From assembly GCA_016212935.1 (NCBI GenBank), contig JACRDE010000385.1, positions 1 through 32,917 of the forward strand: a stretch of DNA of 32,917 bases, read 5' to 3'. Both the position numbers and the translations under genes were made by a program. A model generated the notes under the pieces. It searched no databases. It was not told the origin of the DNA and saw only the letters and a list, made by a program, of their open reading frames with translations. Shown piece by piece: positions 3,062-25,534 of the stretch. The stretch is from Desulfomonile tiedjei. Lineage in GTDB: Bacteria; Desulfobacterota; Desulfomonilia; Desulfomonilales; Desulfomonilaceae. Each line of letters starts with the position of its first letter. The stretch's first letter is position 1.

Positions 3062-3199
3062 ATGTACAGGTTTACACGATTCCTTCGTCAACTATTCCAG
3101 GAAAGAAAACACTGGAGGAGAAGAAACCGCAAACTGTTCCGGCATTGTAGCCGGTTGACCTACCGGCCGGGTCTGCGCCGAAAAAGGAGAAGACGATGA
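3062..3199 (+). CDS. Arginine-rich microprotein (45 aa)
   Basis: MYRFTRFLRQLFQERKHWRRRNRKLFRHCSRLTYRPGLRRKRRRR*; preceded by gggggagaagt; its TGA overlaps the ATG of the downstream nuclease (ATGA). Confidence 0.45.
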   Translation: MYRFTRFLRQLFQERKHWRRRNRKLFRHCSRLTYRPGLRRKRRRR

Positions 3200-3972
3200 A
3201 CGACCAGGCACAAGAGAAGCCTCATCTCAGCTACAGCCAAATCAACACATACTGTACGTGTCCCTTGAAATACCGCTTCCACTACATCGACCGGATCGAG
3301 CCTCCCTTCACCGCAGCCCCTCTCGCTTTCGGGTCGGCCATTCATGAGGCAGTGGGAGCATTTTATCAGAGTTGTCTTGAAGGCGATCCTCTTTCGGCCG
3401 GTAACATTCATGACGTATACCGTCAAGCGTGGGAAAGCCATGCCAAGGAGCGACCGATTCGTTTCTCTAACGGTGATTCCGCTGAGAGCCTCACGGAAAA
3501 GGCAAAGCGGATGCTGGAGGTGTTCCACGCAGAATTCGATCCGGCTGTTCAGATCATCGGGATCGAGGAGCCCTTCGAGGTGGACCTCGGCAAACGCATG
3601 CCACCGCTGGTGGGTTGGATTGATGTGGTGGAACAGGCGCCGGAGGGCACCGTAACCGTAGCGGATCTGAAGACCGCATCAAAGCGTTACTCGGATAACA
3701 CCGTCCACGCCAACATGCAGCTCACCTGCTATTCACTGGGTGCACAGACGCTTGGCTTCAATGGGGACACTCGCTTTCGTTTGGACGTGCTCCTCAAGAC
3801 CCAGAATCCGGAGTTGATCCGGTACGAGACTACCCGAACCGATGCCAACCGCGACAGATTCCTGAAACTGGTGAAGAGCGTTTGGCAAGGCATCAAAAAG
3901 GAAGTCTTCTTCCCCAAAGCAGATTGGCAGTGCGGGCAATGTCCGTTTGCTGATCCGTGTGGGCAGTGGTAG
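3196..3972 (+). CDS. RecB/Cas4-like PD-(D/E)XK family nuclease with probable C-terminal Cys cluster
   Basis: LSYSQINTYCTCPLKYRFHY, FGSAIHEAV, GWIDVV...VTVADLKTA, MQLTCYSLGA, and C-terminal CGQCPFADPC: the RecB-nuclease motif series with Fe-S-like cysteines. Confidence 0.85.
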   Translation: MNDQAQEKPHLSYSQINTYCTCPLKYRFHYIDRIEPPFTAAPLAFGSAIHEAVGAFYQSCLEGDPLSAGNIHDVYRQAWESHAKERPIRFSNGDSAESLTEKAKRMLEVFHAEFDPAVQIIGIEEPFEVDLGKRMPPLVGWIDVVEQAPEGTVTVADLKTASKRYSDNTVHANMQLTCYSLGAQTLGFNGDTRFRLDVLLKTQNPELIRYETTRTDANRDRFLKLVKSVWQGIKKEVFFPKADWQCGQCPFADPCGQW

Positions 3973-3981
3973 GAGGGCGAG

Positions 3982-4242
3982 ATGGCTACAAAAGCAAAAC
4001 CCGCTGCAACAGCGGAAGAGCCTGCCTCGGTTACGGTCGATAGACACATATCTTTGGATATGGAAAGAGGGAGCGTAGCCGTATCTCGCAACGGGCTCAC
4101 CCTTTCCGTGTCAGGCAAGAACGTGCAGTTGCGCAAGCAATCCCCTCTCAATCTGTCGTTCGATTCCGGCGAAGTCGAGTATGATGATGGAGAGATCCAG
4201 GTGAAGGCAGAGGGAGATGCGATCAAGCTGCAACTGGATTGA
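3982..4242 (+). CDS. Hypothetical protein (86 aa)
   Basis: RBS aggagggcgag before ATG; collinear with the operon; no family recognised. Confidence 0.6.
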   Translation: MATKAKPAATAEEPASVTVDRHISLDMERGSVAVSRNGLTLSVSGKNVQLRKQSPLNLSFDSGEVEYDDGEIQVKAEGDAIKLQLD

Positions 4243-4262
4243 TTCATCACTGTTTCATCACG

Positions 4263-4296
4263 AGCCCGGCTGATCTTGGGATTAGTCGGGCTTTTT
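4263..4296 (+). terminator. Rho-independent terminator-like hairpin
   Basis: AGCCCGGCTGAT-cttggg-ATTAGTCGGGCTTTTT: near-perfect inverted repeat followed by a T run, in the gap between the 86-aa gene and the methyltransferase gene. Confidence 0.65.
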
Positions 4297-4312
4297 CATT
4301 GGGAGGACACCG

Positions 4313-5326
4313 ATGCGAATAGCAGGTCGAATGAAGATGGGTTATTACCCGACTCCTGCAAGAGTCGTGGATTACATAAAGAAATGGCTTTCTTTTCCCC
4401 CCGCGCCTTTCACAGCGTTGGACCCGTGCTGCGGCGAAGGCATCGCTTTGGAACATCTCGTGCGAGGCAGTGAAGCCATTACCTACGGTGTGGAGCTGGA
4501 TGAGCAACGAGCGGACGCAGCCCAAGATCGCATTCAGAACGTTCTGAAGTGCGGAATCGGGGAGACACGGATCGCTCACCAGTCCTATTCGCTTCTGTTT
4601 CTCAATCCGCCCTACGATGAAGCGACCCTTGAAGAGGATGCGGACATCAAAACCGAGCGACAGGAGAAGGCGTTTCTCCGTATGACGGTACCGTATTTGG
4701 TTCCCGGTGGGGTGATAATCTACATCATTCCTCAGAAACGCCTAAACAGGGGCATTGCGCGTCTATTGGCTTCTCGCTTTGAGCGGGTCAATGTCTTCCG
4801 TTTTCCCGATCCCGAGTACGACGACTTCCAACAGGTGGTGGTGTTCGGCGTACGCAAGTCAGTCAATTCCTTGGATGATGGCGTGGCTCTGAAGCTTCAG
4901 AACGTTCCGAACCGCAAGCTGAAGCCCTTGCCGGAGACTGACACGGCACAGTACTCCGTTCCCCCTGCCGGACCTTTGAAGCTGTTCCGCTCGACGGTTA
5001 TCGACCCTGAAGAACTGGCGAAGCAGATGGCACAGTCTCCTTTGTGGCGTAGGTTCGATGCAATGACCACCCGAAGCGAGTTGAAATTGCCCCGCCCGCC
5101 TCTGCCTTTGCACTCGGGACACTTGGGTCTGCTGTTGGCGGCGGGAAAGCTCGACGGAGTGGTGGGTGAAGGCCCGGATCGCCATGTGGTGAAAGGCAAA
5201 GTAACCAAGGTCGTTTCCCGGGTGGAGGAGTACAAAGGAGACGTATTGGAGCAGCGGGAGCTGGATCGGTACGTGGTCTCCATCAAGATTATGAACCGTA
5301 ACGGCGAAATCCGTGAGTTGACTTGA
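4313..5326 (+). CDS. DUF6094-like class I SAM-dependent (N6-adenine type) methyltransferase
   Basis: GYYPTPARVVDYI, motif I-like LDPCCGEG, motif IV LFLNPPYDEA. Confidence 0.75.
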   Translation: MRIAGRMKMGYYPTPARVVDYIKKWLSFPPAPFTALDPCCGEGIALEHLVRGSEAITYGVELDEQRADAAQDRIQNVLKCGIGETRIAHQSYSLLFLNPPYDEATLEEDADIKTERQEKAFLRMTVPYLVPGGVIIYIIPQKRLNRGIARLLASRFERVNVFRFPDPEYDDFQQVVVFGVRKSVNSLDDGVALKLQNVPNRKLKPLPETDTAQYSVPPAGPLKLFRSTVIDPEELAKQMAQSPLWRRFDAMTTRSELKLPRPPLPLHSGHLGLLLAAGKLDGVVGEGPDRHVVKGKVTKVVSRVEEYKGDVLEQRELDRYVVSIKIMNRNGEIRELT

Positions 5327-5337
5327 GAGGGGGAGCC

Positions 5338-5925
5338 ATGTTGGACCATGTCGTGTTTGAGGAGCCCTGGAAAGGCATCAAGGTGTCGGCTTACACCGAC
5401 CAATATGCCTACGACCCGGAGGACAATTCACTGGTGTTCATTTCCTTGGCCGGTACCGAGCAGGCGGTAAAGGCCATATCATCCGCGATTATCGGGGGAC
5501 AAACCGTGAGCATCATGGGTGCAGACAATTCGGAAATCCTGCTGGACGGGCACGCTGCAACCCATTTCCGAGTCTTGTCCACAAAGCTTTCCGGCGGCGC
5601 TGTGCATCAGCTGGTGGCGGACAGCAGGTTCTTCGGGAGTGACGAGCCCGGAGCCTATCTCGTGGTCATCCCTCAACAAGAGGATGTATCCAAGGTTGTC
5701 TATCGCCAAGTCCTTACCCACTTGGCTTCTCCGCTACTTCCCGAGTGGGTTCAATGGATTTGCGGGCAGCTCAAAGAGGTGGACCGGATGCGGGAGATGG
5801 AAGGGACCTTGAGAGTTGCGCAGGTCTCGGCAAACGAGGCCACCGTGGATCAACTGGTCTCGCAAGGATTACGTACGGGACAAATTCGTCTCGAAGGAGG
5901 AGGAACTCATGCTCGATTCCATTAG
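5338..5925 (+). CDS. Hypothetical protein
   Basis: ATG5338 preceded by gagagggggagcc; follows the methyltransferase directly; its 3' end overlaps the helicase start. Confidence 0.6.
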   Translation: MLDHVVFEEPWKGIKVSAYTDQYAYDPEDNSLVFISLAGTEQAVKAISSAIIGGQTVSIMGADNSEILLDGHAATHFRVLSTKLSGGAVHQLVADSRFFGSDEPGAYLVVIPQQEDVSKVVYRQVLTHLASPLLPEWVQWICGQLKEVDRMREMEGTLRVAQVSANEATVDQLVSQGLRTGQIRLEGGGTHARFH

Positions 5926-7963
5926 CGATGTGAACGGATATTTGCAGCAATTCGGAGGGGCTTTGGCTAACAAGATTCAGGTGGAGGCCGAGCCTCTTTT
6001 CAAACCCGGTAACCCATGGCACCCACGCATGAGCAAGCTTCTGCGAAAACCATTTCAAGCCCAGGCCGATGCGATTCAGGGCGCTGTCGAGACGTTGCGC
6101 AAACACAACCATGTGATGTGCATCGGAGAGATGGGCGTGGGCAAGACGCTCATAGGAGCCGCTGTGCCGTACATCATGGAAAACGGGCATCCTCCGCGTG
6201 TCTTGGTCATGTGCCCCGGTCATCTCACCCGCAAGTGGGTGCGAGAGGTGAGAGAAACCGTGCCGGGCGCTGATGCAACCATCATCACGCGTTTGTCTGA
6301 CGTGTCGGCCATTGACCATTATGAGCCACATGGGGGCCTGCGGTACTACGTGGTCAGTAAAGAGCGGGCAAAGCTGTCCTATGCGTGGCGGCCCGCTTTT
6401 AATCTTCGTCGCGGGGTTCCCGTATGCCCGGACTGTGGCTCGACTGTTGTAGATGGAGATGGCGTAGAGGTCAGCGCTGAAGCTCTACAGCATCGTAAGG
6501 CTCGCTGCGGGTCCTGTGGGGCCGCATTGTGGCAGGCGGACAATACTCGGTTCCGCCGATTCTCCATTGCGGATTACGTCAAACGCCACTTGAAGGGTTA
6601 TTTTGATTTCTTCATCTGCGACGAAGTCCATGAGATGAAAGGAGGAGACACCGCTCAAGGCAACGCCTTCGGGACGCTGGCCAGTGCGTGCAAGAGGACC
6701 ATTGCGCTCACGGGAACTTTGTTGGGCGGGTACGCCAGCCACATGTTCCATCTCCAGTACCGGATGAGCCCACAGGCCATGAACGCGGACGGATTTTCCT
6801 ACGGCAACCGCATGAACTTCGTCAATCGGTACGGAGTGCTCGAAAAGATCACTCGCTACTATCCCGGTGATGACAACATCTGCTCCAAGGGCAAGAAGGG
6901 TACTACAGTCACTCGGGAGAAGCCCGGCGTGAGTCCTGCGATCTTCTCGAATCATTTGATGGGCTCCACGGTGTTCCTCCATTTGCAGGACATTGCGGTG
7001 GATCTGCCGGGTCTCACAGAGGACGTTGTTCCGGTTGCGATGGAAGACGACCTTTCCGTTGCCTACAAGGACCTTGAGCACAGGATAGGCTCTGAGATGA
7101 AACGACTCCTGGTCCAAGGATCTCGGCGGCTCCTCGGCGCGTATCTCAATACCCTGCTCTGCTATCCCGACCGGCCTTTTCACAGTGAGCCCCTGGTCGA
7201 TCCGGCCAATGGAAACGTCATCGCTGAGCCACCCCAGTTACCCTCGGATCGCGTGTACCCCAAAGAGGCCGAGCTTCTCAAGATCGTTCATGGAGAGATT
7301 TCTCAGAGCCGACGGAGTTTTGTGTACTGCACCTTCACCAACACCAAGGACGTGACGGGCCGTCTCAAAGAGATCGTCGCCCGCCAAGGGTTCTCTGTCG
7401 AGATACTCAGGTCGTCGGTAAAGCCCGAGCAGCGTGAGGAATGGCTGCGGCAGAAAGTGACGGAAGATGTGCAGGTGGTGATCGGTAACCCCATGCTGGT
7501 TCAAACCGGCTTGGACCTGTTGGATTTTCCCACGATAATCTTCTATCAGACGGGCTACTCTGTTTTTACATTGAGGCAGGCGTCCCGGAGATCGTGGAGG
7601 ATAGGCCAGAAGGAGCCTGTACACATTCACTATCTTCACTACAAAGATACCATGCAGGAACGGGCACTCGAACTGGTCGGCAAGAAGCTCTCAGCTTCGT
7701 TGGCCATTGAGGGCAAGCTCACCGATGATGGACTTGCATCCATGTGCGCCGGTGACGACATGACGTTGATGCTGGCCCGAGCCCTTGTCGAAGGCAGGCA
7801 TATCCAGGGCGCTGAGTCGGTGTGGCGAAAGCTCAACTGCCCCAAACAGACCCCCACCCCGGGGAACGTCATCCCACTTCGCCGGAACTGGTCTTTGGAG
7901 CTGATGGAAGAGCGGTCGGGTACGCTCTGGGATGATTTTTCGGTCATCCAGGCGCTCGGCTAA
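5909..7963 (+). CDS. SF2 (SNF2/DEAH-like) helicase with zinc-ribbon insert
   Basis: ATG5909 behind ggaggaggaactc. Walker A GEMGVGKT, DExH-like ICDEVHEMKG, ALTGTLLGG, zinc-ribbon CPDCGSTV...CGSCGA, C-terminal RQASRRSWRIGQKEPVHIHYL (SNF2-type motif VI). Confidence 0.85.
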   Translation: MLDSISDVNGYLQQFGGALANKIQVEAEPLFKPGNPWHPRMSKLLRKPFQAQADAIQGAVETLRKHNHVMCIGEMGVGKTLIGAAVPYIMENGHPPRVLVMCPGHLTRKWVREVRETVPGADATIITRLSDVSAIDHYEPHGGLRYYVVSKERAKLSYAWRPAFNLRRGVPVCPDCGSTVVDGDGVEVSAEALQHRKARCGSCGAALWQADNTRFRRFSIADYVKRHLKGYFDFFICDEVHEMKGGDTAQGNAFGTLASACKRTIALTGTLLGGYASHMFHLQYRMSPQAMNADGFSYGNRMNFVNRYGVLEKITRYYPGDDNICSKGKKGTTVTREKPGVSPAIFSNHLMGSTVFLHLQDIAVDLPGLTEDVVPVAMEDDLSVAYKDLEHRIGSEMKRLLVQGSRRLLGAYLNTLLCYPDRPFHSEPLVDPANGNVIAEPPQLPSDRVYPKEAELLKIVHGEISQSRRSFVYCTFTNTKDVTGRLKEIVARQGFSVEILRSSVKPEQREEWLRQKVTEDVQVVIGNPMLVQTGLDLLDFPTIIFYQTGYSVFTLRQASRRSWRIGQKEPVHIHYLHYKDTMQERALELVGKKLSASLAIEGKLTDDGLASMCAGDDMTLMLARALVEGRHIQGAESVWRKLNCPKQTPTPGNVIPLRRNWSLELMEERSGTLWDDFSVIQALG

Positions 7964-9337: not shown

Positions 9338-10024
9338 TCATCCACCGCTCACTGAATTTGGAAGAGAATTACGTAACAAAGGCAAGAGATATTCCAAAAC
9401 ATCCTCAGGAATCTTTGCGCTACCATGATTTGTCAGATGGATAGGCGCAAGCTTGCTATCAAATTTAGCCTTAAGTTGCAGCTTTTCCACAACATATCTA
9501 CGACCTTTGACGAAATGGTCTAGTGCGATCCTGACATCTTTGTCACCAGTGACCAGTACTTTTGCACTCACCCCTGTCTCAAGCTCAAGTCCAGCAATCT
9601 GCATCGAATCAATAGTGACCTGTTTTCTCAACTCAGCTTGGAACGCTACAGCCCAATCTAGCAAATTGACTCGAAGAGGACTAATCGAAAGAGAGAAACT
9701 ACTGAGTTCAAGAAGTTTACTGACATAGGCCTGGAAGCTACGAGGTGCATCCCAAAGCTCAATGTTTGGAAAATCCTCAAATAGATTGAAGTCCACTTGT
9801 CGATAGCTCACCCGGTCAAAAATCTCTTCGTTACCGAAGGGGTCTGTAACTGTTTCCTGGTAAGTGATTTTTTCAATGTAGCGAGCTTCAACAGAGGTAT
9901 CTCGCACTCGCTCAACGACAAAGCCGTCATAGCTGTCTTCAGTGAAGGCATTGGCCTTCATTTTGGAAGCCAGTATTCTAAGGGGTACCGGCCACTGAGC
10001 GCTTAACCACCGGATACGCTTCAC
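9338..10024 (-). CDS. Hypothetical protein (228 aa), last gene of the hsd-linked operon
   Basis: 12-nt gap from the upstream gene; full-length ORF; no family recognised. Confidence 0.7.
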   Translation of the reverse strand: MKRIRWLSAQWPVPLRILASKMKANAFTEDSYDGFVVERVRDTSVEARYIEKITYQETVTDPFGNEEIFDRVSYRQVDFNLFEDFPNIELWDAPRSFQAYVSKLLELSSFSLSISPLRVNLLDWAVAFQAELRKQVTIDSMQIAGLELETGVSAKVLVTGDKDVRIALDHFVKGRRYVVEKLQLKAKFDSKLAPIHLTNHGSAKIPEDVLEYLLPLLRNSLPNSVSGG

Positions 10025-10036
10025 AGATTTTCTCCC

Positions 10037-11158
10037 CTAGTCTGTGTGATCTGCAGCCACTTCCTCTACCTTATTGCGAATCTCAGCAAGGGTCCTGTGG
10101 GCTGTCTGCTCGATCAAAGAGAGAAGTTGTTGTTTGTGCTCAGGAGAAATTGGTCTGAGGGTCTTCGTGTATTCGCGATTTTGGAAGTGAAAAGCACCAC
10201 GCACAATGTACTTGAACCCCCTACCTGCGTCCGGCTCTTCGAAGCCAGCCTCATATTCTACGATGAAGTAAGGAGAGATTGTCTGCTTGGATCTCCAAAT
10301 GATTGAAGTGATGAAGAAGCCTTTGGCTCGTAGCTGCTGATACTCAGTTGAAGCAAGCAAACTCTGCCCCTTGAATGCAACGTTCTTGACCAAGGCCAGC
10401 ATTTCCTGCCCTGCTTGCTCGGCATCTTGGTCATCCTCAAGATCAAGCTCATTTTCATCTACTTCCTTGATGTTTGACTCAACTTTGACACTGGTTACAT
10501 CGTCCAGCTTGAAATCTGGAAGTTTGCTGATCAATGAAGTGAAGAACTCCGTCCGCTGCTCGGAGTTGGTGAATTCCGTGAGTTCAATCAAATCAGCTGG
10601 AATGTCGGTCTTCTTCTTTCCGTCAAGGCGCTCCTTGAGATTGTGGACGATCTCCTTTGCCTTGGCATTGGCTGGCATTCGTACAATAGTTTTGTCCCCT
10701 TCGATGATGAATTCAATGCCTGCTTGTTTAGGGCGCCGTTGAACAAGTCGGTTTTTAGAATAGTCAATCTCCGAGTACTGCACTGTCACAAGATACTTGT
10801 TGGTACCATCCTGGTGTGTGATTACTTTTTCATCGCCGGGTGCTTGCTCCCTATAATCATCTGAAACTTCTTTAATTTCATCAATGGACAGTTGGGTGTT
10901 GAGGACAATAGACGTAAGTTTTTCCGCTCTGCCGGAATGCTCACGCTGGTCAAGAATGAGGTTTAAGTCATGATAGTCCTGGGGCAACAGGGAAAGATTA
11001 TTTGCAAGCGTTTCCCGTGAATCTCTGGGCGAGTAGAATATGCCTCTGTCTTTTGCTAATTCGAGCATGACAGATTCCGTAATTCGCAACTTAGACGCCA
11101 TTAGAACGTCAAAAATTTCTTGGTCTGTCGCACAGTAAAGTGGATTGCTTTTAGACAT
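10037..11158 (-). CDS. Hypothetical protein (about 373 aa), hsd-linked accessory gene
   Basis: Likely start ATG11158 (MSKSNPLYCATDQEIFDVL) overlapping the upstream stop by 8 bp; contains LAKDRGIFYSPRDSRETLANNLSLLPQDYHDLN and an acidic stretch DENELDLEDDQDAEQ. Confidence 0.75.
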   Translation of the reverse strand: MSKSNPLYCATDQEIFDVLMASKLRITESVMLELAKDRGIFYSPRDSRETLANNLSLLPQDYHDLNLILDQREHSGRAEKLTSIVLNTQLSIDEIKEVSDDYREQAPGDEKVITHQDGTNKYLVTVQYSEIDYSKNRLVQRRPKQAGIEFIIEGDKTIVRMPANAKAKEIVHNLKERLDGKKKTDIPADLIELTEFTNSEQRTEFFTSLISKLPDFKLDDVTSVKVESNIKEVDENELDLEDDQDAEQAGQEMLALVKNVAFKGQSLLASTEYQQLRAKGFFITSIIWRSKQTISPYFIVEYEAGFEEPDAGRGFKYIVRGAFHFQNREYTKTLRPISPEHKQQLLSLIEQTAHRTLAEIRNKVEEVAADHTD

Positions 11159-12131
11159 TCTCCATTCCAATATCAAGCTCAGAGAATCTTGTTTGCACTT
11201 GATTTATTTGGCCGTATTTGATGGAATCGAGCAGTTTCTTGATATCCGTCGCTCCGTCGCACTGATCGATGTACTGGTCTATCGCCTTTCCAAAAAAGGC
11301 AGGCGCATCACGATGGGCGTCAAGAGTCTTGATTTGAACATCTGTATCGTCCACCAGGACCTGGTAATGCATAAGATAGTCAATCAAGTAAAGGAACTCC
11401 TCTACTGATTCGCCTCTCCGTCTGTAATAGATGACAACTCCCCTACGATTCCGGCTCTTGGGGTCAGCGTAGGAAAGAATGATCCATGGGCCAGTCAACA
11501 TCTCCAATGTGGCCGCCTTGGCATGTTCCAACTGGACCTTTTTCTTGCGTACAAGATGCGGATAGAAGAAACGACAGTGCTCACGGGCAGGCAACTCTCC
11601 AGTACCGCGCATCTGAACTATTTCGTAGCGCACATTGTTCAGCCAGAAGATATCTTTAGGACCGAAGACTACTATTTTAGATTTCTTTGGAATGTCCAAT
11701 GTCTCATGTTTCACTGCATCTAAAAGGCCGCTGAAGTCTTTATCGTGTTCACCGTCATGATTATAGACAAAAAGAAGACCACATATTCCTGGGGAAACAT
11801 CGTTGTGAATGTACTTGTTTCTCCATTCGTCGCTTTTTTCGGCACAAGTCAAGGCTCGTGCAAGGCCTTCAATTGCGGCACAAACCTTGCCGGTGCTGAT
11901 AGTTCCCCTTGCATAACTCTTCAGATCACAATTGATATAGGATCTGGCAAGAGTATAGGGCTCGTCATAGTAAAAAACGATATCCGATGGATGTGTCTTG
12001 GCATTGTGCCGTTCTTTTTCCTCACACGGCCAATTCCAGTTCCAGGGGCCAACCTGCTCCCATAAGAATTCGGAAAAAAGTTCTTTTGACAGCTTTTCTG
12101 CCATCTTGGCAATATTCGATGTTTCTCCCAT
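11151..12131 (-). CDS. Putative PD-(D/E)XK nuclease-like protein (326 aa), hsd-linked accessory gene
   Basis: THPSDIVFYYDEPYTLARSYINCDLKSYA fits an (E/P)-D...(D/E)-x-K nuclease core; preceded by a conserved-looking WNWPC. Confidence 0.65.
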   Translation of the reverse strand: MGETSNIAKMAEKLSKELFSEFLWEQVGPWNWNWPCEEKERHNAKTHPSDIVFYYDEPYTLARSYINCDLKSYARGTISTGKVCAAIEGLARALTCAEKSDEWRNKYIHNDVSPGICGLLFVYNHDGEHDKDFSGLLDAVKHETLDIPKKSKIVVFGPKDIFWLNNVRYEIVQMRGTGELPAREHCRFFYPHLVRKKKVQLEHAKAATLEMLTGPWIILSYADPKSRNRRGVVIYYRRRGESVEEFLYLIDYLMHYQVLVDDTDVQIKTLDAHRDAPAFFGKAIDQYIDQCDGATDIKKLLDSIKYGQINQVQTRFSELDIGMENV

Positions 12132-12133
12132 AT

Positions 12134-12400
12134 TCAGCTTCCTGATTCAATAGAATTTGACTTCCGAACTAGAATCAAAATCTGGCTGTCTTTATGCTCA
12201 GGGCGCATTTCGAGAGGATCACTTTCATTGTCTATGGTCGGACCGCCACTGAATACTTTGCCGATTACATCCGGCCGGTGCTGGTCGTCCAATGTATTCA
12301 TAATGGCTGTCTTGTTTGAGGGCAGCGATGATTTTCTCCATTCCTGCGAGTTGGTCCGGTTTGGCTTCGTGATCAAATTGGGAAATTCGTGAATTGGCAT
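12134..12400 (-). CDS. Hypothetical small protein (88 aa) within the hsd operon
   Basis: Fits the operon spacing exactly (3 nt after hsdS, 2 nt before the nuclease-like gene); polar composition, no family recognised. Confidence 0.45.
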   Translation of the reverse strand: MPIHEFPNLITKPNRTNSQEWRKSSLPSNKTAIMNTLDDQHRPDVIGKVFSGGPTIDNESDPLEMRPEHKDSQILILVRKSNSIESGS

Positions 12401-12403
12401 GGG

Positions 12404-14050
12404 TTAAACCTGCGCCGTAAGTTCAGCAACAATGGCGTCCATGAGATCTGTCTCCATAACCCGAGAGGCTACAAGCTGGGCTTCCAACTGGTCAACCAAT
12501 GACATCAGCTCATTGATTTTGGAAACTATCCGCCGTTGTTCGGCGAGGGGTGGAAATGGAATCGGGCAATTGCGGACTTGGCGCATATTGATCGATGCGA
12601 GATTCGTGGTTTGTTTCGACGCAGACTCAAAGTAGCCCCGGCCATCAGGGGAGTTGAAATAATGCTCAAACCAAAACGGCGTAATCTCGGGGGACCGCAT
12701 TCGCGCACGAAATATATGGTTCTGGTGAAGGCAGACGGGAATTTCGGCCCTCCAGATAGCTGCCCGACCGACCTTATCCCAATCGCCACCCTCGGTCATC
12801 AGAAGGTCGTTCTCACGGAGTGCATAACGATCAATCTCATTTTCGGCGATTGACACATTCTTGATCACTGAGAGGTCGATCTCGCCGCGTTTTACATTGG
12901 CCACTCGGAGATACGGCAAGGTCACTGTCTTTCGCTGTGCGAGCTTGCGACCGAGCGTGACGCCGCCAGCGACAAGAGCAACATCCTCAAATCGAACTCG
13001 CGTCCATGACGGTGGAAGCGAGTCATAATCGGCGTCATCTGCATTTAAAAAGGCAACGGTGCTTTTCAACCCAAGCCGTGAGAGACACTCCTCCGCCGAT
13101 TCGTCGTTTGGGTCTTGCGGAACAAGCTTTCCCTGGACGGCAAGAGCGAGAATGGTCTTACGGAGGTCGGCTGGCTCGATTGTATAGGAGTCATGGAAGA
13201 GGAACTTGAGATTCGCTGAAGTAGGCGCTTCGCCGAAATGGGTGAGTGCGGCTCGGGATAGTGCCGTGTGTTGCTTATCGCGCCCATGTTGCTGCGCTCC
13301 TAGCTGATCACACAACCTCATCAACTCATCCACTTTTGCTACAATTCGGTGTTGCTCGGCGAGGGGTGGGATCGGAGCGAGTGTCGACCGCAGATTGTTC
13401 TGTGTAATTTGGTTGATCGTGGTTGTGTTCACTTCGCCGATCATTTGCCGAAACAACGGAGAGCAAATGAAGTGGTATAGATATTGATTCACCTCGCTTC
13501 GAAAGATTGCCATAAAGGCTCCAAAAGCTGTCGGCTCGTTGAGGTCCTGAATCATTGCAACTTTCCCGACCAGCGCTCGGCTTCCATTCCTCGCGCAGAT
13601 TAGCAAGTCACCATCTTGCACCATGAGGCTCTGTTTGGGATCAAGTTTCACTCGCACGAGGTCGGAGAAATCGAGTTTGCCCTTCTGTATGTTACTTGAG
13701 CGCAGAACCGGAATCCCTACGACGGATACGTCCCCTGGCGAATAGGTCAGGCCTATATTAGTTTCGCCAATATTACCAAGACGTTCCCATGCCCATCCAG
13801 AGGGTAGTCCGAACGGAATCTCGTCTGGCGTGATCGCTGGCATGGGCTGTGATTTTCGTCGCTGATAATTGTCAAGGCCCGTTCGGTTCGTTAGCCTGGC
13901 TAGCAAAGTATCCGCCGACTCGTCATTTGGGTCTTGCTCAACGAGCCTTCCGCGAACCGCCAGTTGTAGCACCAACTCCCGCATCTTCTGCATCGCTTTA
14001 GGCCAATCGGCGAACTGGTCAAACTTCTCAAAGAACGTCTCAATCTTCAT
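12404..14050 (-). CDS. hsdS: Type I restriction-modification specificity subunit HsdS
   Basis: Two target-recognition halves each ending in PPLAEQHRIVAKVDELM / PPLAEQRRIVSKINELM; repeated conserved regions ELVLQLAVRGRLVEQDPNDESA / TILALAVQGKLVPQDPNDESA. Confidence 0.95.
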   Translation of the reverse strand: MKIETFFEKFDQFADWPKAMQKMRELVLQLAVRGRLVEQDPNDESADTLLARLTNRTGLDNYQRRKSQPMPAITPDEIPFGLPSGWAWERLGNIGETNIGLTYSPGDVSVVGIPVLRSSNIQKGKLDFSDLVRVKLDPKQSLMVQDGDLLICARNGSRALVGKVAMIQDLNEPTAFGAFMAIFRSEVNQYLYHFICSPLFRQMIGEVNTTTINQITQNNLRSTLAPIPPLAEQHRIVAKVDELMRLCDQLGAQQHGRDKQHTALSRAALTHFGEAPTSANLKFLFHDSYTIEPADLRKTILALAVQGKLVPQDPNDESAEECLSRLGLKSTVAFLNADDADYDSLPPSWTRVRFEDVALVAGGVTLGRKLAQRKTVTLPYLRVANVKRGEIDLSVIKNVSIAENEIDRYALRENDLLMTEGGDWDKVGRAAIWRAEIPVCLHQNHIFRARMRSPEITPFWFEHYFNSPDGRGYFESASKQTTNLASINMRQVRNCPIPFPPLAEQRRIVSKINELMSLVDQLEAQLVASRVMETDLMDAIVAELTAQV

Positions 14051-15506
14051 TGACGCTTCCGTTTTCAGCGGTTAAAGCGCGATAGAACTCCTGCTTAAGT
14101 GTGGCTCGGGTCTCCGCTATTTGCCTGAGAAGTTTCTCGTATCTGGGCAGCAGATGGTCGACATCGCCAGGGCCGTCATCATTCTTGTATGGGTTTTTAA
14201 AATCGAGGTTGTAGTTGCCTGCCTTGATCTGGTCGATAGAGACACGCCAGGCCTGCTCGTTTTCCACCCGGTTGTTCCACCATGTCTTTTCCGGTTCGAA
14301 CTCCTGTATGCGGATAGGTTTGCCTTTATTGTAGCTCTTGGCCCCCCGTGGATACGGATGCTCGTAATACCAAGTCTCTGTCGTAGGCTGATCCTTGGTG
14401 AAGAAGAGGAGGTTGGTGCGGATGCTGGTATACGGATTGAAAACGCCGTTGGGCAGGCGGACGACGGTGTGCAGATTGCAGTCGGTTAACAGAGCTTCCT
14501 TAATGCGCGTTTTAACCCCTTCACCGAAGAGAGTACCATCTGGTAGCACGAGGCCTGCTCGGCCACCCGGCTTTAGTATCTTCATGAGGAGTACAAGGAA
14601 TAGGTCGGCAGTCTCACGGGTGCGGAATTCTGCGGGGAAGTTCGCCTCAATGCCGTCCTCCTCCATGCCCCCGAAAGGCGGGTTTGTGACGATAACGTCC
14701 ACACGTTCCTTGGGCGACCAATCACGCAGAGGACGAGCGAGGGTATTGTCATGCCGGACATTCGAAGGAACATCGATACCGTGGAGCAACATATTGGTCA
14801 TGCACAGGATGTGGGGCAAATGCTTCTTTTCGATGCCTTGAAAACTTTCCTGTATGTAATGCTCGTCGTCCTCCGTTCTTGCCTGTTTACGCAGATGTTC
14901 GATTGCACAGACCAGAAAGCCTCCAGTGCCACATGCAGGGTCGAGAATGGTTTCTCGTTTTGCAAGACTTGGATTAACCTGATCGACAATGAACTGAGTC
15001 ACAGCGCGTGGAGTATAAAATTCGCCTGCATTACCGGCGGACTGAAGATCCTTGAGGATTTTCTCGTAGATGTCGCCGAACATGTGACGGTCATTTGAGG
15101 AGTTGAAGTCGACGCCATTGATTTTATTGATGACCTGCCTCATTAGAGTGCCGTTCTTCATGTAATTGTTGGCATCTTCAAAGGACATACGGATCAGGCC
15201 GCTGATTTTGTTCGCTCTCCCGTTTAGCGACTTCAGTTTGGGTAACAGAGTGTTGTTTACGAAGTCCAGAAGCGCTTCCCCCGTGATGCCTTCTTCGTCC
15301 CCAGCCCACGCAGACCAGGATAGATTCTGTGGAATAGGCGACCTGTATTCGTCGTGAAGCAGTTCGAGTTCTTTTTCTCGGTCGTCGAAGATCTTAAGAA
15401 AAAACATCCAGCCGAGTTGTTCAAGGCGCTGCGCATCACCGTAGGTTCCGGCATCTTTGCGCATGATATCCTGAATGGATTTGACTATGGTGGAAATATT
15501 GGACAT
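14040..15506 (-). CDS. hsdM: Type I restriction-modification methyltransferase subunit HsdM
   Basis: ILDPACGTGGFL (SAM motif), VTNPPFGG (NPPF catalytic motif), GEFYTPRAVTQFIVDQV. Confidence 0.97.
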   Translation of the reverse strand: MSNISTIVKSIQDIMRKDAGTYGDAQRLEQLGWMFFLKIFDDREKELELLHDEYRSPIPQNLSWSAWAGDEEGITGEALLDFVNNTLLPKLKSLNGRANKISGLIRMSFEDANNYMKNGTLMRQVINKINGVDFNSSNDRHMFGDIYEKILKDLQSAGNAGEFYTPRAVTQFIVDQVNPSLAKRETILDPACGTGGFLVCAIEHLRKQARTEDDEHYIQESFQGIEKKHLPHILCMTNMLLHGIDVPSNVRHDNTLARPLRDWSPKERVDVIVTNPPFGGMEEDGIEANFPAEFRTRETADLFLVLLMKILKPGGRAGLVLPDGTLFGEGVKTRIKEALLTDCNLHTVVRLPNGVFNPYTSIRTNLLFFTKDQPTTETWYYEHPYPRGAKSYNKGKPIRIQEFEPEKTWWNNRVENEQAWRVSIDQIKAGNYNLDFKNPYKNDDGPGDVDHLLPRYEKLLRQIAETRATLKQEFYRALTAENGSVNED

Positions 15507-15509
15507 GGC

Positions 15510-17876
15510 TTAAGCCGCTTCCCGGTAAAGTTGATTTTCGAGTTCGCGTATGACTGCAAGGTAGTTTTGCTTCCCGCCGAAGAGTTTTACGATTTCGACA
15601 GGCGTACCGAAAGCGGTGAGTGGATCAACTTTGAGGATTTCGAGCGACTCAACGCTCTTAATACCGCTGTCGGCGTACTTCTGTAACAAGGCTTGGATTA
15701 CAGCCCGAGCCTTTTCGCCATAGGTCGTGAACAGATTGCGCTTCTTAACACGGTCAGCCCGTTCACGACGGGTCAGAGGAGGTTGGTCGAATGCGACATG
15801 GCAGACAAGATCGAAGGCATCGTAATCCCTCCCCACCTGCTCAGCCAGTTCCTCAAGAAACACTCCTTGATTTCCGAGTTCTTCTATGATGACGTGCTTG
15901 CGATCTGTATCATTCCAAGCGTTCAAAAAGGCATCCAGTGATGTATACATCCTGCGAATGGTATTGCGTGTATAGTCTCTAAGGGATTCAGTAATCAGAT
16001 TGCCGTTGGCGTCGAGGAATTGAACACGCTCGCTGATGATCGTAACTTCCACATCATCGACATAATACTTGACCTGCCGCCCGCTGACGTCAGTCGGTTG
16101 CGACATGAAAGGTCTGTCGATTCCATCGAGGGGCGATTCTTGACCTGATGTGCCTGTAGTTTCATCGGGGGGGACCGGCGACTCGTTGGAGTTCGGTTCG
16201 TAAACCTGAACAGGATCACCATCGAAGCTAGGGTCCGCGAACAGTGTTGTGGCCCGCCTAAAATCCATAATAGTAAAGAAGAACTTGTTGTATTCCTCAT
16301 TGATGCGGGTCCCACGGCCGATAATTTGCTTAAACTCCGTCATGGAATTTATGCGTTTGTCGAGGACGATCAAACGGCAGGTCTGTGCGTCGACTCCCGT
16401 CGACATCAGTTGCGAGGTCGTAGCTATGACCGGGAATGTGGACTCTGGATCAATAAAATTGTCCAGCTGCGCCTTGCCCTCATCGCTGTCGCCGGTAATA
16501 CGCATCACGTACTTGTTATTTGCAGCGGCAAGGTCTGGATTGGCATTCACGAGGGCTTGTCGCATCCGCTCAGCATGATCAATATTCTCACAAAAGATGA
16601 TTGTTTTGGCGAAACGGTCTATAGATTTGAGGAACTCAGTTATCTTTGCGGCGACGAGTTCAGTCCGTTTTTCCAGGATCAAGTTCCGGTCGAAGTCCAT
16701 CTCGTTGTACTCACGGTCTTCGATAAGCTGGCCGTATTTGTCCGTCTTTCCCATTGTGGGACGCCATCCTTCGAGATCTTTGTCGAGACCGATGCGGATG
16801 ACCTTGTACGGTGCTAGGAAACCGTCAGAAATGCCTTGCCTGAGTGAATAGGTATAGATCGGATCGCCGAAATACTCGATGTTGGAAACATCTCTGGTTT
16901 CCTTAGGGGTTGCTGTCAAACCGATCTGGGTTGCAGATGAAAAGTACTTCAGAACTTTGCGCCAAGCCGCATCGTCTGCAGCGCTGCCTCGATGACACTC
17001 ATCCACAACAACGAGGTCGAAAAAATCAGGTGTAAACTGCTTATAGATATTCTGTTCTTCTTCGGTGCCGGTAACAGCCTGATACAGAGAAAGATAGATT
17101 TCAAAGGCTTTATCAACGGTTCTATTCGTGATCTTGGTCATCGCCTGACCGAACGGCTTAAAATCATTGGTCTTGGTCTGGTCGGCGAGGATGTTGCGAT
17201 CCACGAGGAACAGTATGCGTTTCTTAGCGCCGGATTTCCACAACCGCCATATAATCTGGAACGCTGTGTACGTCTTTCCGGTGCCTGTGGCCATGACCAA
17301 TAGTAAGCGGTTCTCACCTCGGGCTATGGCATCGACGGTTCGGTTTATGGCAACGATTTGGTAATAACGCGGTGTTTTTCTGGAGTCTCCATAGTAGTAG
17401 TCCTGGGTTGCCACCGTTTCCTGTGCGCCTGTGTAATGTTTTGCTATGCAATAACGTGCCCAGAGTTCATCGGGTGTCGGAAATTGGTCGAGCGGGATCT
17501 CCCTTTCCACGGTGCCGCTAGTGCCGGTTCGGTCGTGTTCCAGGAACGCATCGCCGTTAGAACTGTAGGCAAAAGGCACATCGAGTATCTCAGCGTATTC
17601 AAGCGCTTGCGGCATTCCATCGCCGACCGAGTGTCTGTTGTCCTTGGCTTCCACAACCGCTATAGGGATATTCGGCTTGTAGAACAGGATGTAATCCGCC
17701 TTTTTCGCTTCGCCTCGGGTGACGGTCTTGCCCAGCACAATGACGCGGCCCCTAGTGAAGTAGTGCTCCTCAAGCACCTGGGTCATCACATTCCACTTGG
17801 TTCCGTTCTCCCCGACAATTGCCGGTGTGATGAATTTCGTTCGGATGTCCGCTTCCGTTAAAGCCTTCTTATTCAT
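15510..17876 (-). CDS. hsdR: Type I restriction endonuclease subunit HsdR (EcoEI-like)
   Basis: MNKKALTEADIRTKFITPAI start; VVEAKDN nuclease motif; VMATGTGKTYTAFQ; DECHRGS; IGLTATP; C-terminal IIGRGTRI. The supplied ORF starts upstream at 17918. Confidence 0.95.
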   Translation of the reverse strand: MNKKALTEADIRTKFITPAIVGENGTKWNVMTQVLEEHYFTRGRVIVLGKTVTRGEAKKADYILFYKPNIPIAVVEAKDNRHSVGDGMPQALEYAEILDVPFAYSSNGDAFLEHDRTGTSGTVEREIPLDQFPTPDELWARYCIAKHYTGAQETVATQDYYYGDSRKTPRYYQIVAINRTVDAIARGENRLLLVMATGTGKTYTAFQIIWRLWKSGAKKRILFLVDRNILADQTKTNDFKPFGQAMTKITNRTVDKAFEIYLSLYQAVTGTEEEQNIYKQFTPDFFDLVVVDECHRGSAADDAAWRKVLKYFSSATQIGLTATPKETRDVSNIEYFGDPIYTYSLRQGISDGFLAPYKVIRIGLDKDLEGWRPTMGKTDKYGQLIEDREYNEMDFDRNLILEKRTELVAAKITEFLKSIDRFAKTIIFCENIDHAERMRQALVNANPDLAAANNKYVMRITGDSDEGKAQLDNFIDPESTFPVIATTSQLMSTGVDAQTCRLIVLDKRINSMTEFKQIIGRGTRINEEYNKFFFTIMDFRRATTLFADPSFDGDPVQVYEPNSNESPVPPDETTGTSGQESPLDGIDRPFMSQPTDVSGRQVKYYVDDVEVTIISERVQFLDANGNLITESLRDYTRNTIRRMYTSLDAFLNAWNDTDRKHVIIEELGNQGVFLEELAEQVGRDYDAFDLVCHVAFDQPPLTRRERADRVKKRNLFTTYGEKARAVIQALLQKYADSGIKSVESLEILKVDPLTAFGTPVEIVKLFGGKQNYLAVIRELENQLYREAA

Positions 17877-18418
17877 TGGTCTCTGACCATAGTCCGTCTT
17901 ATCACACGGCGGACTCACGCTGTTTCCTTCGGCACAAGATGTTCAAGGGTCTTCTTGTATTCCGAAATTGTTCGGCGATCTTGTGAAAATAAGAACCTGA
18001 TTATCTAGCTGCTGAGCTTATCGCATCACACCGCTCTGGGTCAAGAAAAACGAGGTGTTTGGCTGATTTAAGCCTCTTGGGGTCCAGGGTCGAAAGGATG
18101 GTCGAAATTCTTTGAGCTGTGAGAAACTGCTTCGATAAGCTGTTTCGGTGCCCATTCGGAGTGGGAATCAAACCATCGGCAAAAGGTCTCATGAATGCTG
18201 GACCAGGTTTCTCCTTCCGCGACCTGTAAGTTAGAGGCCTGCTCTCTCAATCAGGGGGGCCAAGGATGGGATGCGCGATCTTAGCCAGGCCCGGGACCCT
18301 CATCGTGTGTGGTTTTCCGCTGTCCAAAATACCACCGTCTCTCAGAATCGATCTGACTCAGCCTTAGCCGATTTCCTTCAAGCAAAGCGCCTTGGAATCG
18401 GGGTGTGAGTGGGTCCTT

Positions 18419-20310: not shown

Positions 20311-22467
20311 ATGTCAGTAAGCATCATCCGTGGAACCAATGACAAACCTGTGGCAAGCGAGCTTCTGGCCAATTTGTTTCGGAAGCAGTCCAATCTCACC
20401 GGACAATTGTTCGTGGGATATCCGATCATCGGCACCCCAGAAGGGAGACTCTCGATTGATGCATTGTTGATCACACCCGAAAAAGGTTTGGTCATTTTCG
20501 ATCTAGTCGAAGGAAGAGAAATACAGGACTGGAAGAATCGTCAAGATCAAGCTGCCAATTTATTGGAAGCGAAGCTGAAGGCGCACCGCGAATTGGTGAA
20601 GCGTCGCGATCTTCTGATTCCCATCCAAACGCTGACTTTCGCTCCGGCTGTCTCCGATTTGCCCGTAAACAAAGATTACCTGATAGCGAACAATAAAGGG
20701 CTCGAAAGGGCTCTCAATGAATTGGAGGAGTGGGACCCGCAAGACGCGGACCTCTTCGACAAGACTCTATCTGCTATCCAGAGTATATCCTCGATCAGAA
20801 AAAGCCGAACTAAGCGGGTAGTCGAGAAGGAAGACTCTCGTGGAATGAAATTAAAACACCTGGAGGATTCAATCGCGACCTTGGATTCCCAACAAGGAAA
20901 GGCCGTGGTGGAAACCGTGGAAGGTGTACAGCGAATTAGAGGACTTGCGGGATCAGGCAAGACAATCGTCTTGGCCTTGAAAGCAGCCTATTTGCACGCT
21001 CAACATCCGGAATGGCGTATCGCTGTGACGTTTCATACCCGCGCTCTTAAAGGACAATTTCACAGGCTGATAAATACTTTCTGTATTGAACAAACTGGGG
21101 AAGAACCAGACTGGGAAAACGTTCTGGTAATCAATGCATGGGGAGCTCCAGGAAACGCCGAGAGGGACGGCATTTATCATCAATTCTGCCGAGTTCATGA
21201 CTTGCCCTACTACGATTTCCGCTCCGCGAGAAATCAAGCCAGAGGGAGAGAATTCGAATGGGCATGCGAAGAGGCACTTAGGAACACACCCAAGCCAAAA
21301 CATATGTATGATGCCATTTTGGTGGACGAAGCACAAGATTTTCCCCCTGAATTCATTCGGCTTTGTTACGAGTTCCTCCGTAAGAAAAAACGCCTGGTGT
21401 ATGCTTACGATGAATTGCAGAGTCTTTCAGGTGAATCACTGCCATCTCCGGAGGACATCTTTGGCAAGAATTCTGATGGGACGCCTCGCGTTAGTCTTGA
21501 TGTCTCCACAACGGGATCTGCGCGAAAGGACATAATTTTACCGAAGTGTTATCGCAATTCTCGACCACTTTTGGTGACCGCTCATGCTTTGGGCTTCGGA
21601 ATTTACAGGAAACCGCCTACAAGATTCTCCACAGGCCTAGTGCAGATGTTTGATCATCCAAATTTGTGGGAGGAGGTAGGATACGCGGTTGAGGACGGGC
21701 GGCTCGTGGAAAACTCCGAGGTAACTCTTGCACGTACTCCAGAAACCAGCCCGAGATTCCTGGAAGACCATTCGTCAATTGAGGATTTGGTACAGTTCCG
21801 AAGCTTCCCTTCCGAAGACGAACAAACGGACTGGTTAGTGGAACAAATACGTAAAAATCTTGAGGAGGATGAACTGCGCCATGACGATATCGTGGTCATC
21901 AATCCAGATCCATTGACGACAAGGGGAAAAGTGGGGCCTGTTCGCAAGAAATTATATGAGATTGGAATCAATAGCCATTTGGCAGGTGTCGATACAGATC
22001 CAGACATTTTCTTCAAAACGGGCGTTAAATCCGTCACGTTCACTGGGATCTACCGAGCGAAAGGCAATGAAGCGGCAATGGTCTATATTGTCAACGCACA
22101 GGACTGCCAGTCGGCTTCATCCAATTTGGCCAGCATCAGAAATCGTCTTTTTACTGCCATAACACGCAGCAAGGCTTGGGTCAGAGTCCTGGGTATCGGT
22201 GAAACTATGGAGAGGCTTGCGGACGAGTTCAGTAGATTGAAGAAGAATCAATTTCAGTTACGTTTCCGGTATCCGACTGAGGAAGAAAGAAAGAAACTGC
22301 GGATAGTCCACCGAGACATGAGTTTAGAAGAAAGAAAACGACTGAAAAAGAGAAAAGAAGGACTGGCCGGTCTAGTTCAGGATCTAGAGGCTGGCATTAT
22401 TGATCCTCAAGATTTAGATGAAGACATAGTACAGAAACTGGAAGCCCTACTCATGAAGAAGAAATAA
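20311..22467 (+). CDS. SF1 UvrD-like helicase with NERD-like N-terminal region (Helicase-DUF2290-type defence gene)
   Basis: Walker A RGLAGSGKT, LVDEAQDFPPE, PKCYRNSRPLL, TGIYRAKGNEAAMVYIVN, FTAITRSKAWVRVLG; N-terminal LSIDALLITPEKGLVIFDLVEG resembles NERD. Confidence 0.85.
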   Translation: MSVSIIRGTNDKPVASELLANLFRKQSNLTGQLFVGYPIIGTPEGRLSIDALLITPEKGLVIFDLVEGREIQDWKNRQDQAANLLEAKLKAHRELVKRRDLLIPIQTLTFAPAVSDLPVNKDYLIANNKGLERALNELEEWDPQDADLFDKTLSAIQSISSIRKSRTKRVVEKEDSRGMKLKHLEDSIATLDSQQGKAVVETVEGVQRIRGLAGSGKTIVLALKAAYLHAQHPEWRIAVTFHTRALKGQFHRLINTFCIEQTGEEPDWENVLVINAWGAPGNAERDGIYHQFCRVHDLPYYDFRSARNQARGREFEWACEEALRNTPKPKHMYDAILVDEAQDFPPEFIRLCYEFLRKKKRLVYAYDELQSLSGESLPSPEDIFGKNSDGTPRVSLDVSTTGSARKDIILPKCYRNSRPLLVTAHALGFGIYRKPPTRFSTGLVQMFDHPNLWEEVGYAVEDGRLVENSEVTLARTPETSPRFLEDHSSIEDLVQFRSFPSEDEQTDWLVEQIRKNLEEDELRHDDIVVINPDPLTTRGKVGPVRKKLYEIGINSHLAGVDTDPDIFFKTGVKSVTFTGIYRAKGNEAAMVYIVNAQDCQSASSNLASIRNRLFTAITRSKAWVRVLGIGETMERLADEFSRLKKNQFQLRFRYPTEEERKKLRIVHRDMSLEERKRLKKRKEGLAGLVQDLEAGIIDPQDLDEDIVQKLEALLMKKK

Positions 22468-22472
22468 GTGTG

Positions 22473-23177
22473 ATGCTCACTGCAAGCCAGACCAAGAAAC
22501 AGATTGACGAACTCTTGAAAAAGCTAATCGAGTTTGGCCTATCAACTGATCAGAATTTTCCATTCGAAAGACACGGACCTGCCGGTTCGGTAGAGATTAC
22601 CTTCCCCTCGGCGGAACGATTCTCTGTTGCCATGAAAAACATCTCGTATGTAGAAATCTACCGACGCTTAACTAAGGAAAGGGCTTATCTACTCAAAATG
22701 ATTGACGGTGCAATAATCCAAATAATGTACGCTTTCAGTGGAGGTCGCCTGGAACGTCATCGGCTAGCATTTTTCCCTTCACCCGATCTGGAGGAATTCC
22801 AAAACAATCCAGATGTCTACTTGCAAGACGAGATCTACGCCGACATAGTTGCCAAGAATATTGTTCCGTTCCCTTTACGCTTCGACTTTGATATAAGAGG
22901 AGAAATCCACAAAGACCTGGTACATCCAAGATCCCACCTCACTTTAGGGCAGTACGAAAATTGCAGGATTCCTGTGAGTGCACCGCTTATCCCTTTTCAT
23001 TTCTTCGAATTCATTCTTCGCAATTTCTACCATACCGCTCACCACACCTGTGGTGACGCATTGCCTCGATATACTGATACATTCGATGAGTCAATCACGT
23101 ATAACGAACGCAGAGTGGTTCACGTTCAAACTCCGGTACCGGATTCAGCAGCAGTAGCAGTAGGGATGCGCGATTAG
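22473..23177 (+). CDS. DUF2290 domain protein
   Basis: RLERHRLAFFPSPDLEEFQNNPDVYLQDEIYADIVAKNIVPFPLRFDFD...HKDLVHPRSHLTLGQYENCRIPVSAPLIPFHFFEFILRNFYHT is recognisable as DUF2290; starts 5 nt after the helicase stop. Confidence 0.8.
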   Translation: MLTASQTKKQIDELLKKLIEFGLSTDQNFPFERHGPAGSVEITFPSAERFSVAMKNISYVEIYRRLTKERAYLLKMIDGAIIQIMYAFSGGRLERHRLAFFPSPDLEEFQNNPDVYLQDEIYADIVAKNIVPFPLRFDFDIRGEIHKDLVHPRSHLTLGQYENCRIPVSAPLIPFHFFEFILRNFYHTAHHTCGDALPRYTDTFDESITYNERRVVHVQTPVPDSAAVAVGMRD

Positions 23178-23252: not shown

Positions 23253-24194
23253 ATGTCTTTGAAAAATGCAAGCCTGTGGATGGATGAAGTCCCCGTGTTT
23301 CATGAGTTGCCTTCTGACCAGGCCATTCGCAAGTTACAACAATTCGGATACCTTAAGTCACAGGAGCCTGGTAAGACGCTAACGCGAGCGGGAATGAGCG
23401 CCAAGAGTGTCATCGATCAGCTGTCCTTTTGGAAGAAGAAGTCTTGGGCACACGACGGGCATGCTTTTGGCTATATCCCGCTGCTTCGGCACGATTCCCA
23501 AAAACCGGTACAAATAATGCATGTCGGGGCAATCCAACCCGACGAGTCATTGAAAGGTGCCAGAGTTACTATCCGACTCAACAGATTACGGGTCGCTAGC
23601 TATCCAGGCAGAGGGAGGCACAATATTCTCTTTGATTTCCATGCGGAAAACCACCTTAAAGGAAAAAAAGAGAATGTACATTTCAACCAAGTCTATAAAG
23701 TACAGGAAGGGGAGAGCGCAGGGATCATTGGCTACCCCATTTTTATAGGACTCAATGTGGGCCGAGAAGGCCTCCTATTCGATGGTTGCACCGTAAACGT
23801 CAAGAACGACCAAGACCAGGCCATCGTAAAGTTTCTGGATTCAGACACATTCAAGGCTGGACTCAAGCTTGTCAAGACAGCCCAACCTGCTATAGCCCCC
23901 TTAACAGACATTACCGTTGGGCTCACCAAGATGCTAGCCCACAGAAGCGAAAACCTCGGTGTTCAGAAATTCTCCATGGGCCTCAGCTTCGATCAGGTAC
24001 CGGGGGGTGCCAGGTTGGCTGAGGGGGCGTACGTGGTAGTCCAGATACCGGAGGAGGATCAGGTGGTCTGGGACTGGAAGGAATGGATCTACGAACCACT
24101 GTTGGGCAGCATCGTAAGGAAAGAAGAACCGACTAAGCTGATTCCATTTAACTATGTCATGTTTGGTATCAGCCGATACACTGACTCTGACTGA
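23253..24194 (+). CDS. Hypothetical protein (313 aa) between two predicted defence modules
   Basis: Uninterrupted ORF with RBS-like aagggagattct; no family recognised. Confidence 0.65.
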   Translation: MSLKNASLWMDEVPVFHELPSDQAIRKLQQFGYLKSQEPGKTLTRAGMSAKSVIDQLSFWKKKSWAHDGHAFGYIPLLRHDSQKPVQIMHVGAIQPDESLKGARVTIRLNRLRVASYPGRGRHNILFDFHAENHLKGKKENVHFNQVYKVQEGESAGIIGYPIFIGLNVGREGLLFDGCTVNVKNDQDQAIVKFLDSDTFKAGLKLVKTAQPAIAPLTDITVGLTKMLAHRSENLGVQKFSMGLSFDQVPGGARLAEGAYVVVQIPEEDQVVWDWKEWIYEPLLGSIVRKEEPTKLIPFNYVMFGISRYTDSD

Positions 24195-25522: not shown

Positions 25523-25534
25523 AGGAGGAGACCG

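Follow-up and report, generated by a model that had tools for sequence, protein, structure and literature searches.

A predicted PD-(D/E)XK nuclease subunit in a 3HP operon neighbouring hsdRMS in Desulfomonile tiedjei

The 326-residue protein encoded downstream of the type I restriction genes on this Desulfomonile tiedjei contig is Hp1 of a complete 3HP operon and is likely to be its nuclease subunit, gated by its partners Hp2 and Hp3 and cutting nucleic acid on infection, with the hsd genes forming a separate system. The relevant features of the window, by which we mean the whole stretch of 32,917 nucleotides that was analysed, are given below; codon positions are counted from the ATG at 12131.

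9338 to 10024, minus strand: Hp3, 228 aa, GTG start (PADLOC Hp3, E = 2e-17; PHROG 5850, E = 5.1e-37)
10037 to 11158, minus strand: Hp2, 373 aa (PADLOC Hp2, E = 5.5e-39; AlphaFold2 model; Foldseek)
11151 to 12131, minus strand: Hp1, predicted PD-(D/E)XK nuclease subunit of 3HP (PADLOC Hp1, PHROG 7059, conservation, AlphaFold2 model)
11919 to 11927, minus strand: codons of Hp1 Asp69-Leu70-Lys71 (DLK)
11982 to 11984, minus strand: codon of Hp1 Asp50, the Asp of PSD
12134 to 12400, minus strand: 88-aa open reading frame between hsdS and Hp1, coding status uncertain
12404 to 14050, minus strand: hsdS, type I specificity subunit, a neighbour outside 3HP
14040 to 15506, minus strand: hsdM, a neighbour outside 3HP
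15510 to 17918, minus strand: hsdR, a neighbour outside 3HP

The Hp1 reading frame, which an earlier note on this DNA had delineated from the letters alone, is real in both coordinates and length, and begins with the ATG at 12131. Its product is matched by the PADLOC Hp1 model over residues 2-325 (E = 3e-64) and by PHROG 7059 (E = 3.5e-109), and the three consecutive genes match three PHROG families that correspond to the same Hp1/Hp2/Hp3 trio. Hp2 starts at an ATG at 11158 (an alternative TTG lies at 11176), and its start overlaps the end of Hp1; Hp3 is the fastest-evolving of the three subunits. All three genes are present, contiguous and on one strand in the order Hp1-Hp2-Hp3 found at other loci, and each protein matches its model over nearly its full length. 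The trio is a complete 3HP (Rst_3HP) operon with Hp1 as its first gene, and represents an already-known system, named for its three "hypothetical proteins." Its setting differs from that of most other 3HP loci we fetched, which reside in prophages, filamentous phages or plasmids; the window's copy follows immediately after hsdRMS, on a contig of 33 kb in a draft genome of 647 contigs.

A Vibrio phage record labels the same trio Rst_3HP Hp1, Hp2 and Hp3. The Rst prefix in DefenseFinder presumably designates the systems of Rousset and colleagues; because of this meaning, and because models for those systems were built for DefenseFinder, we infer that the system named 3HP in PADLOC and DefenseFinder is one that this group described. 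In their study of P2 hotspots, Rousset et al. (2022) reported protection against P1 by an E. coli system made up of three genes, for which they noted "no clear predicted domain" (PMC9122126). The DefenseFinder paper, in which models for the Rousset systems were made, lists Rst_3HP as mostly prophage-borne (PMC9090908).

Scanning a genome collection yielded two loci (a Sulfotelmatobacter MAG and Acidicapsa), and protein searches returned plasmid and phage records. Viral contigs, in which a single-protein scan with Hp1 had found no locus, gave 80 loci when scanned with an alignment. Among 94 fetched loci with Hp1, a number that includes two copies of the window and some near-duplicates, Hp2 is present in 92 and Hp3 in 90, in constant order; where Hp2 or Hp3 is missing, the fetched stretch is cut off at the operon. 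Carriers include P2-like prophages, filamentous Pseudomonas phages and a Vibrio prophage, together with plasmids of Pseudomonas, Azospirillum, Aliarcobacter, Vibrio and Enterobacter. At one locus (L078:7050-10082), approximately 1.3 kb separates Hp2 from Hp3, which have almost no gap between them in relatives; this is possibly an insertion element. Two of the filamentous Pseudomonas phages, each approximately 13 kb long, devote roughly one-fifth of the genome to 3HP (L011:485-3252 and L014:4992-7889); both depositors annotated Hp1 as a nuclease related protein, and the L011 record calls Hp3 RdgC-like. For a Klebsiella prophage that carries 3HP, the Phold paper reports a GAPS1-like gene.

The earlier note had recognized a PSD...DLK core in Hp1, and had taken the spacing of its residues as a sign of a PD-(D/E)XK active site. 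The segment, THPSDIVFYYDEPYTLARSYINCDLKSYA (residues 46-74), contains P48, D50, D69 and K71, and the WNWPC segment upstream contains C36. The core itself was correctly identified; the argument from spacing did not hold, as the pattern P-x(0-1)-D-x(9-30)-[DE]-x-K is present in 29% of shuffled Hp1 sequences and D-x(9-30)-[DE]-x-K in 96% (n = 2,000). By itself, the motif is at chance level, and its spacing alone is no evidence. It rises above chance because it is conserved in relatives and because fold prediction concurs. Searches of Pfam and of PDB sequences with Hp1 gave no meaningful match.

The AlphaFold2 model of Hp1 is confident (mean pLDDT 88.8, pTM 0.88). It contains a helix at residues 2-20 that includes E3, a strand at 46-56 that bears D50 and is broken at residue 50, a strand at 62-73 that bears D69 and K71, a helix at 80-99 and a strand at 113-124; in this predicted structure, the order of elements is that expected for the alpha-beta-beta-beta-alpha-beta core of PD-(D/E)XK enzymes. 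Searching the PDB by structure with Foldseek gave no match at E <= 0.001 and no convincing full-length match, and the top-ranked rows were long, poor superpositions (acetyl-CoA carboxylase, TM 0.25). Short, lower-rmsd matches to nucleases were found at E values of about 0.026-0.09. These local matches included the R2 retrotransposon endonuclease (probability 0.97, 4.3 Å over 122 columns), AF1548 (0.89), Cap4 (up to 0.82) and, lower in the list, MspJI (0.47), all of which are known to carry restriction-endonuclease-like domains. Their resemblance is confined to the Hp1 core: sequence similarity to Hp1 is not detectable, and their partner domains and partners are different. RPB5 proteins, whose N-terminal domain is classed with the same fold, matched Hp1 in both the PDB and viral Foldseek libraries; the viral library gave mainly unnamed matches, with a few PD-(D/E)XK proteins besides RPB5. 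The predicted structure has the PD-(D/E)XK fold anticipated by the earlier note, as a restriction-endonuclease-like topology with local matches; because the E values of these matches are modest, the assignment rests on topology and conserved residues, with Foldseek as support.

Conservation was assessed in 38 sequences that are mutually less than 90% identical, comprising the window's Hp1 and 37 homologues with 29-69% identity to it. The positions invariant in all 38 include E3, W24, C36, H42, H47, P48, D50, D69, L70, K71, S72 and C96. The P-x-D...(D/E)-x-K motif is kept across the family (38/38), including the Asp and Lys residues (D50, D69 and K71) on which, along with the fold, the earlier note had let its nuclease reading stand or fall; fold and residues both came out in its favour. 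The conserved Cys36, His42, His47 and Cys96 suggest a putative metal site. The nuclease assignment is not entirely new, because one NCBI record independently annotates the E. coli Hp1 (WP_000508501.1) as a "PD-(D/E)XK nuclease domain-containing protein"; most of the listed records still have "hypothetical."

From hsdR through Hp3 the genes share a strand and follow one another nearly without a break, bridged by the 88-aa reading frame, for which no relative was found among the sequences searched. Such tight spacing makes shared transcription possible in this genome, and it favours the proposal that Hp1 is an accessory effector nuclease of the hsd operon serving type I restriction, a role we now consider highly improbable. 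hsd genes are absent from the available flanks of the other 3HP loci we fetched, and at six loci of the same phylum that encode a close HsdM, none of Hp1, Hp2 or Hp3 lies near hsd. When genomes of this phylum were sampled, 26 of 297 encoded a close HsdM, and 1 of 395, the window's own, encoded Hp1. Composition also shifts at the boundary, from a GC content of 0.505-0.525 (GC3 0.57-0.60) in the hsd genes to 0.45-0.46 (GC3 0.42-0.51) in the 3HP genes. Because the other fetched 3HP loci are without hsd, the six hsd loci are without 3HP and composition changes at the boundary in the window, the link is only local, and we regard type I restriction and 3HP as distinct defences that share an island. 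The conserved linkage to hsdRMS implied by the accessory module of the earlier note was not seen, and with 3HP free-standing in comparative context, we rejected Hp1 as an hsd accessory. Of the note's second nuclease beside HsdR, what stands is the PD-(D/E)XK-type core, predicted from fold and conservation; its attachment to hsd does not.

Two further systems lie nearby on the plus strand. One is a Helicase-DUF2290 pair (20311-23177; PADLOC helicase E = 0, 1063.9 bits; DUF2290 E = 2.6e-96), a known system reported to be active against T7, and the other is an ietAS-like pair (24410-27832; AAA ATPase IetA, E = 7.8e-72; subtilase IetS, E = 1.2e-44). Between them, a 313-aa protein (23253-24194, plus strand) has no match in Pfam and PADLOC searches. 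Together with the type I system and 3HP, the two pairs form a four-system defence island. The island's flanks (3196-7963 and 28995-30650) encode a PDDEXK_1 nuclease, a DUF6094 methyltransferase, a helicase and a family A DNA polymerase, which suggests a mobile element, for example a plasmid or a phage-like element.

Comparison with GapS4a, another suggestion of the earlier note, proved a good lead. The NCBIfam GapS4a model matches the window's Hp1 at E = 1.3e-6, with 27.9 bits against a curated cut-off of 270 bits, and 12 of the 38 aligned Hp1 sequences match it (best E = 2.7e-11). Profile-profile comparison then linked Hp1 to GapS4a at 96.2% probability (E = 2.7e-9, 210 columns), where control pairs of non-partner families reached at most 0.6%. 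These profile matches, with an alignment to GapS4a that spans Hp1 residues 1-223, make the two proteins distant relatives. At the (D/E)XK position, GapS4a has VSAK, or SAK after a one-residue shift, and the acidic residue is not obvious. The kinship of Hp2 with GapS4b is fainter: 3 of 41 Hp2 homologues match the NCBIfam GapS4b model (best E = 5.2e-6), the window's Hp2 has no match in NCBIfam and so no GapS4b partner by that test, and the two profiles align at a low 14%, across 73 N-terminal columns. We considered and rejected classification of the trio as GAPS4 (NF047933, NF047934), as the cut-offs were not reached and gene number differs; GAPS4 loci consist of two genes and lack Hp3, whereas the window has a third gene. 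Genuine GapS4a/GapS4b pairs were found in Ewingella (L096), where both proteins score above the curated cut-offs, in E. coli (L102 and L103, where the records already give these names) and in Pantoea (L104). A GapS4a scan of 59 genomes of the window's phylum gave no match, but its control was likewise silent, which makes this negative uninformative.

A third branch is represented by a trio on haloarchaeal plasmids, in Natronorubrum (L095:4298-7302) and Halobacterium sp. DL1 (L097:3307-6273) loci, which matches the 3HP profiles at 97.4% (Hp1), 98.2% (Hp2) and 97.7% (Hp3). Its gene order is Hp3-Hp1-Hp2, unlike the Hp1-Hp2-Hp3 of 3HP, and its Hp2-like protein has a C-terminal helix-hairpin-helix stretch that is clear in Natronorubrum. 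A viral scan for additional haloarchaeal Hp1 relatives found none. The haloarchaeal Hp1 relatives retain both E3 and D50, and where 3HP has DLK they have ESK, a swap that is permitted in PD-(D/E)XK enzymes. In a joint alignment of 3HP, GapS4a and haloarchaeal sequences, E3, W24, C36, H42, H47, D50, Y55, C96 and E210 are invariant; retention of the Cys-His-His...Cys set across the three branches suggests a metal-binding site. We put forward, tentatively and with some reserve, that 3HP, GAPS4 and the haloarchaeal trio may constitute one bacterial-archaeal defence superfamily, all with a PD-(D/E)XK nuclease and an invariant Cys-His-His...Cys metal site adjoining the catalytic Asp, and with the 3HP sensor Hp2 having a CENP-N/CENP-L fold.

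These alignments bear on whether Hp1 might use a PD-(D/E)XK fold mainly for binding or as a scaffold, leaving the damage to another subunit or a host factor. Non-catalytic members of the fold exist, with RPB5 among the Foldseek matches, and the missing obvious acidic residue in the GapS4a motif would be in keeping with such a role. We nevertheless judge it improbable for Hp1, as E3, D50, D69 and K71 are invariant in 38 3HP sequences and the haloarchaeal D-to-E swap points to selection for metal binding rather than for shape alone.

The AlphaFold2 model of Hp2 (pLDDT 88.7, pTM 0.79) matched the eukaryotic kinetochore proteins CENP-N and Iml3 (CENP-L) in Foldseek with probabilities of 0.99-1.0 and E values as low as 2e-5; E. 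coli RnlA was matched with a probability of 0.99. Because whole-chain TM scores are low (0.19-0.26) and rmsd values are 9-13 Å, the modelled likeness to CENP-N, CENP-L and RnlA is at best a shared-domain signal. The model suggests that Hp2 is a predicted binding or sensing subunit.

In the nuclease-subunit reading that we favour, Hp1, Hp2 and Hp3 would assemble into a three-protein complex with Hp1 as its putative effector. Hp2 would bind DNA or a phage trigger and, together with Hp3, would sense infection, keep Hp1 inactive until then and license cleavage. Within Hp1, E3, D50 and D69 would hold a divalent metal while K71 assists hydrolysis, and C36, H42, H47 and C96 would bind a structural metal adjacent to the active site; on infection, Hp1 would cut nucleic acid, most likely DNA. 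Alternatively, Hp1 could be a toxin nuclease directed against RNA or the host chromosome in abortive infection, with Hp2 and Hp3 acting as antitoxin-like partners, a scheme that differs from the favoured one solely in its target. Several PD-(D/E)XK defence effectors are suicidal, and RnlA, which belongs to the RnlA-RnlB toxin-antitoxin pair, is among the matches of the Hp2 model, but this match belongs to Hp2 and not to Hp1; we view a toxin role as possible, if on the unlikely side.

With these assignments, 3HP, formerly a system without a clear predicted domain, gains a predicted catalytic subunit in which candidate active-site residues are named and, in Hp2, a likely sensor whose predicted fold can be recognised. 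What is new here is a testable nuclease assignment for Hp1 and the proposed superfamily of 3HP, GAPS4 and the haloarchaeal trio; 3HP itself was known. It also gains relatives in GAPS4 and the haloarchaeal trio, so that findings made on one of these systems could inform the others. If Hp2 truly shares ancestry with CENP-N and CENP-L, a bacterial defence protein would enter the question of kinetochore origin.
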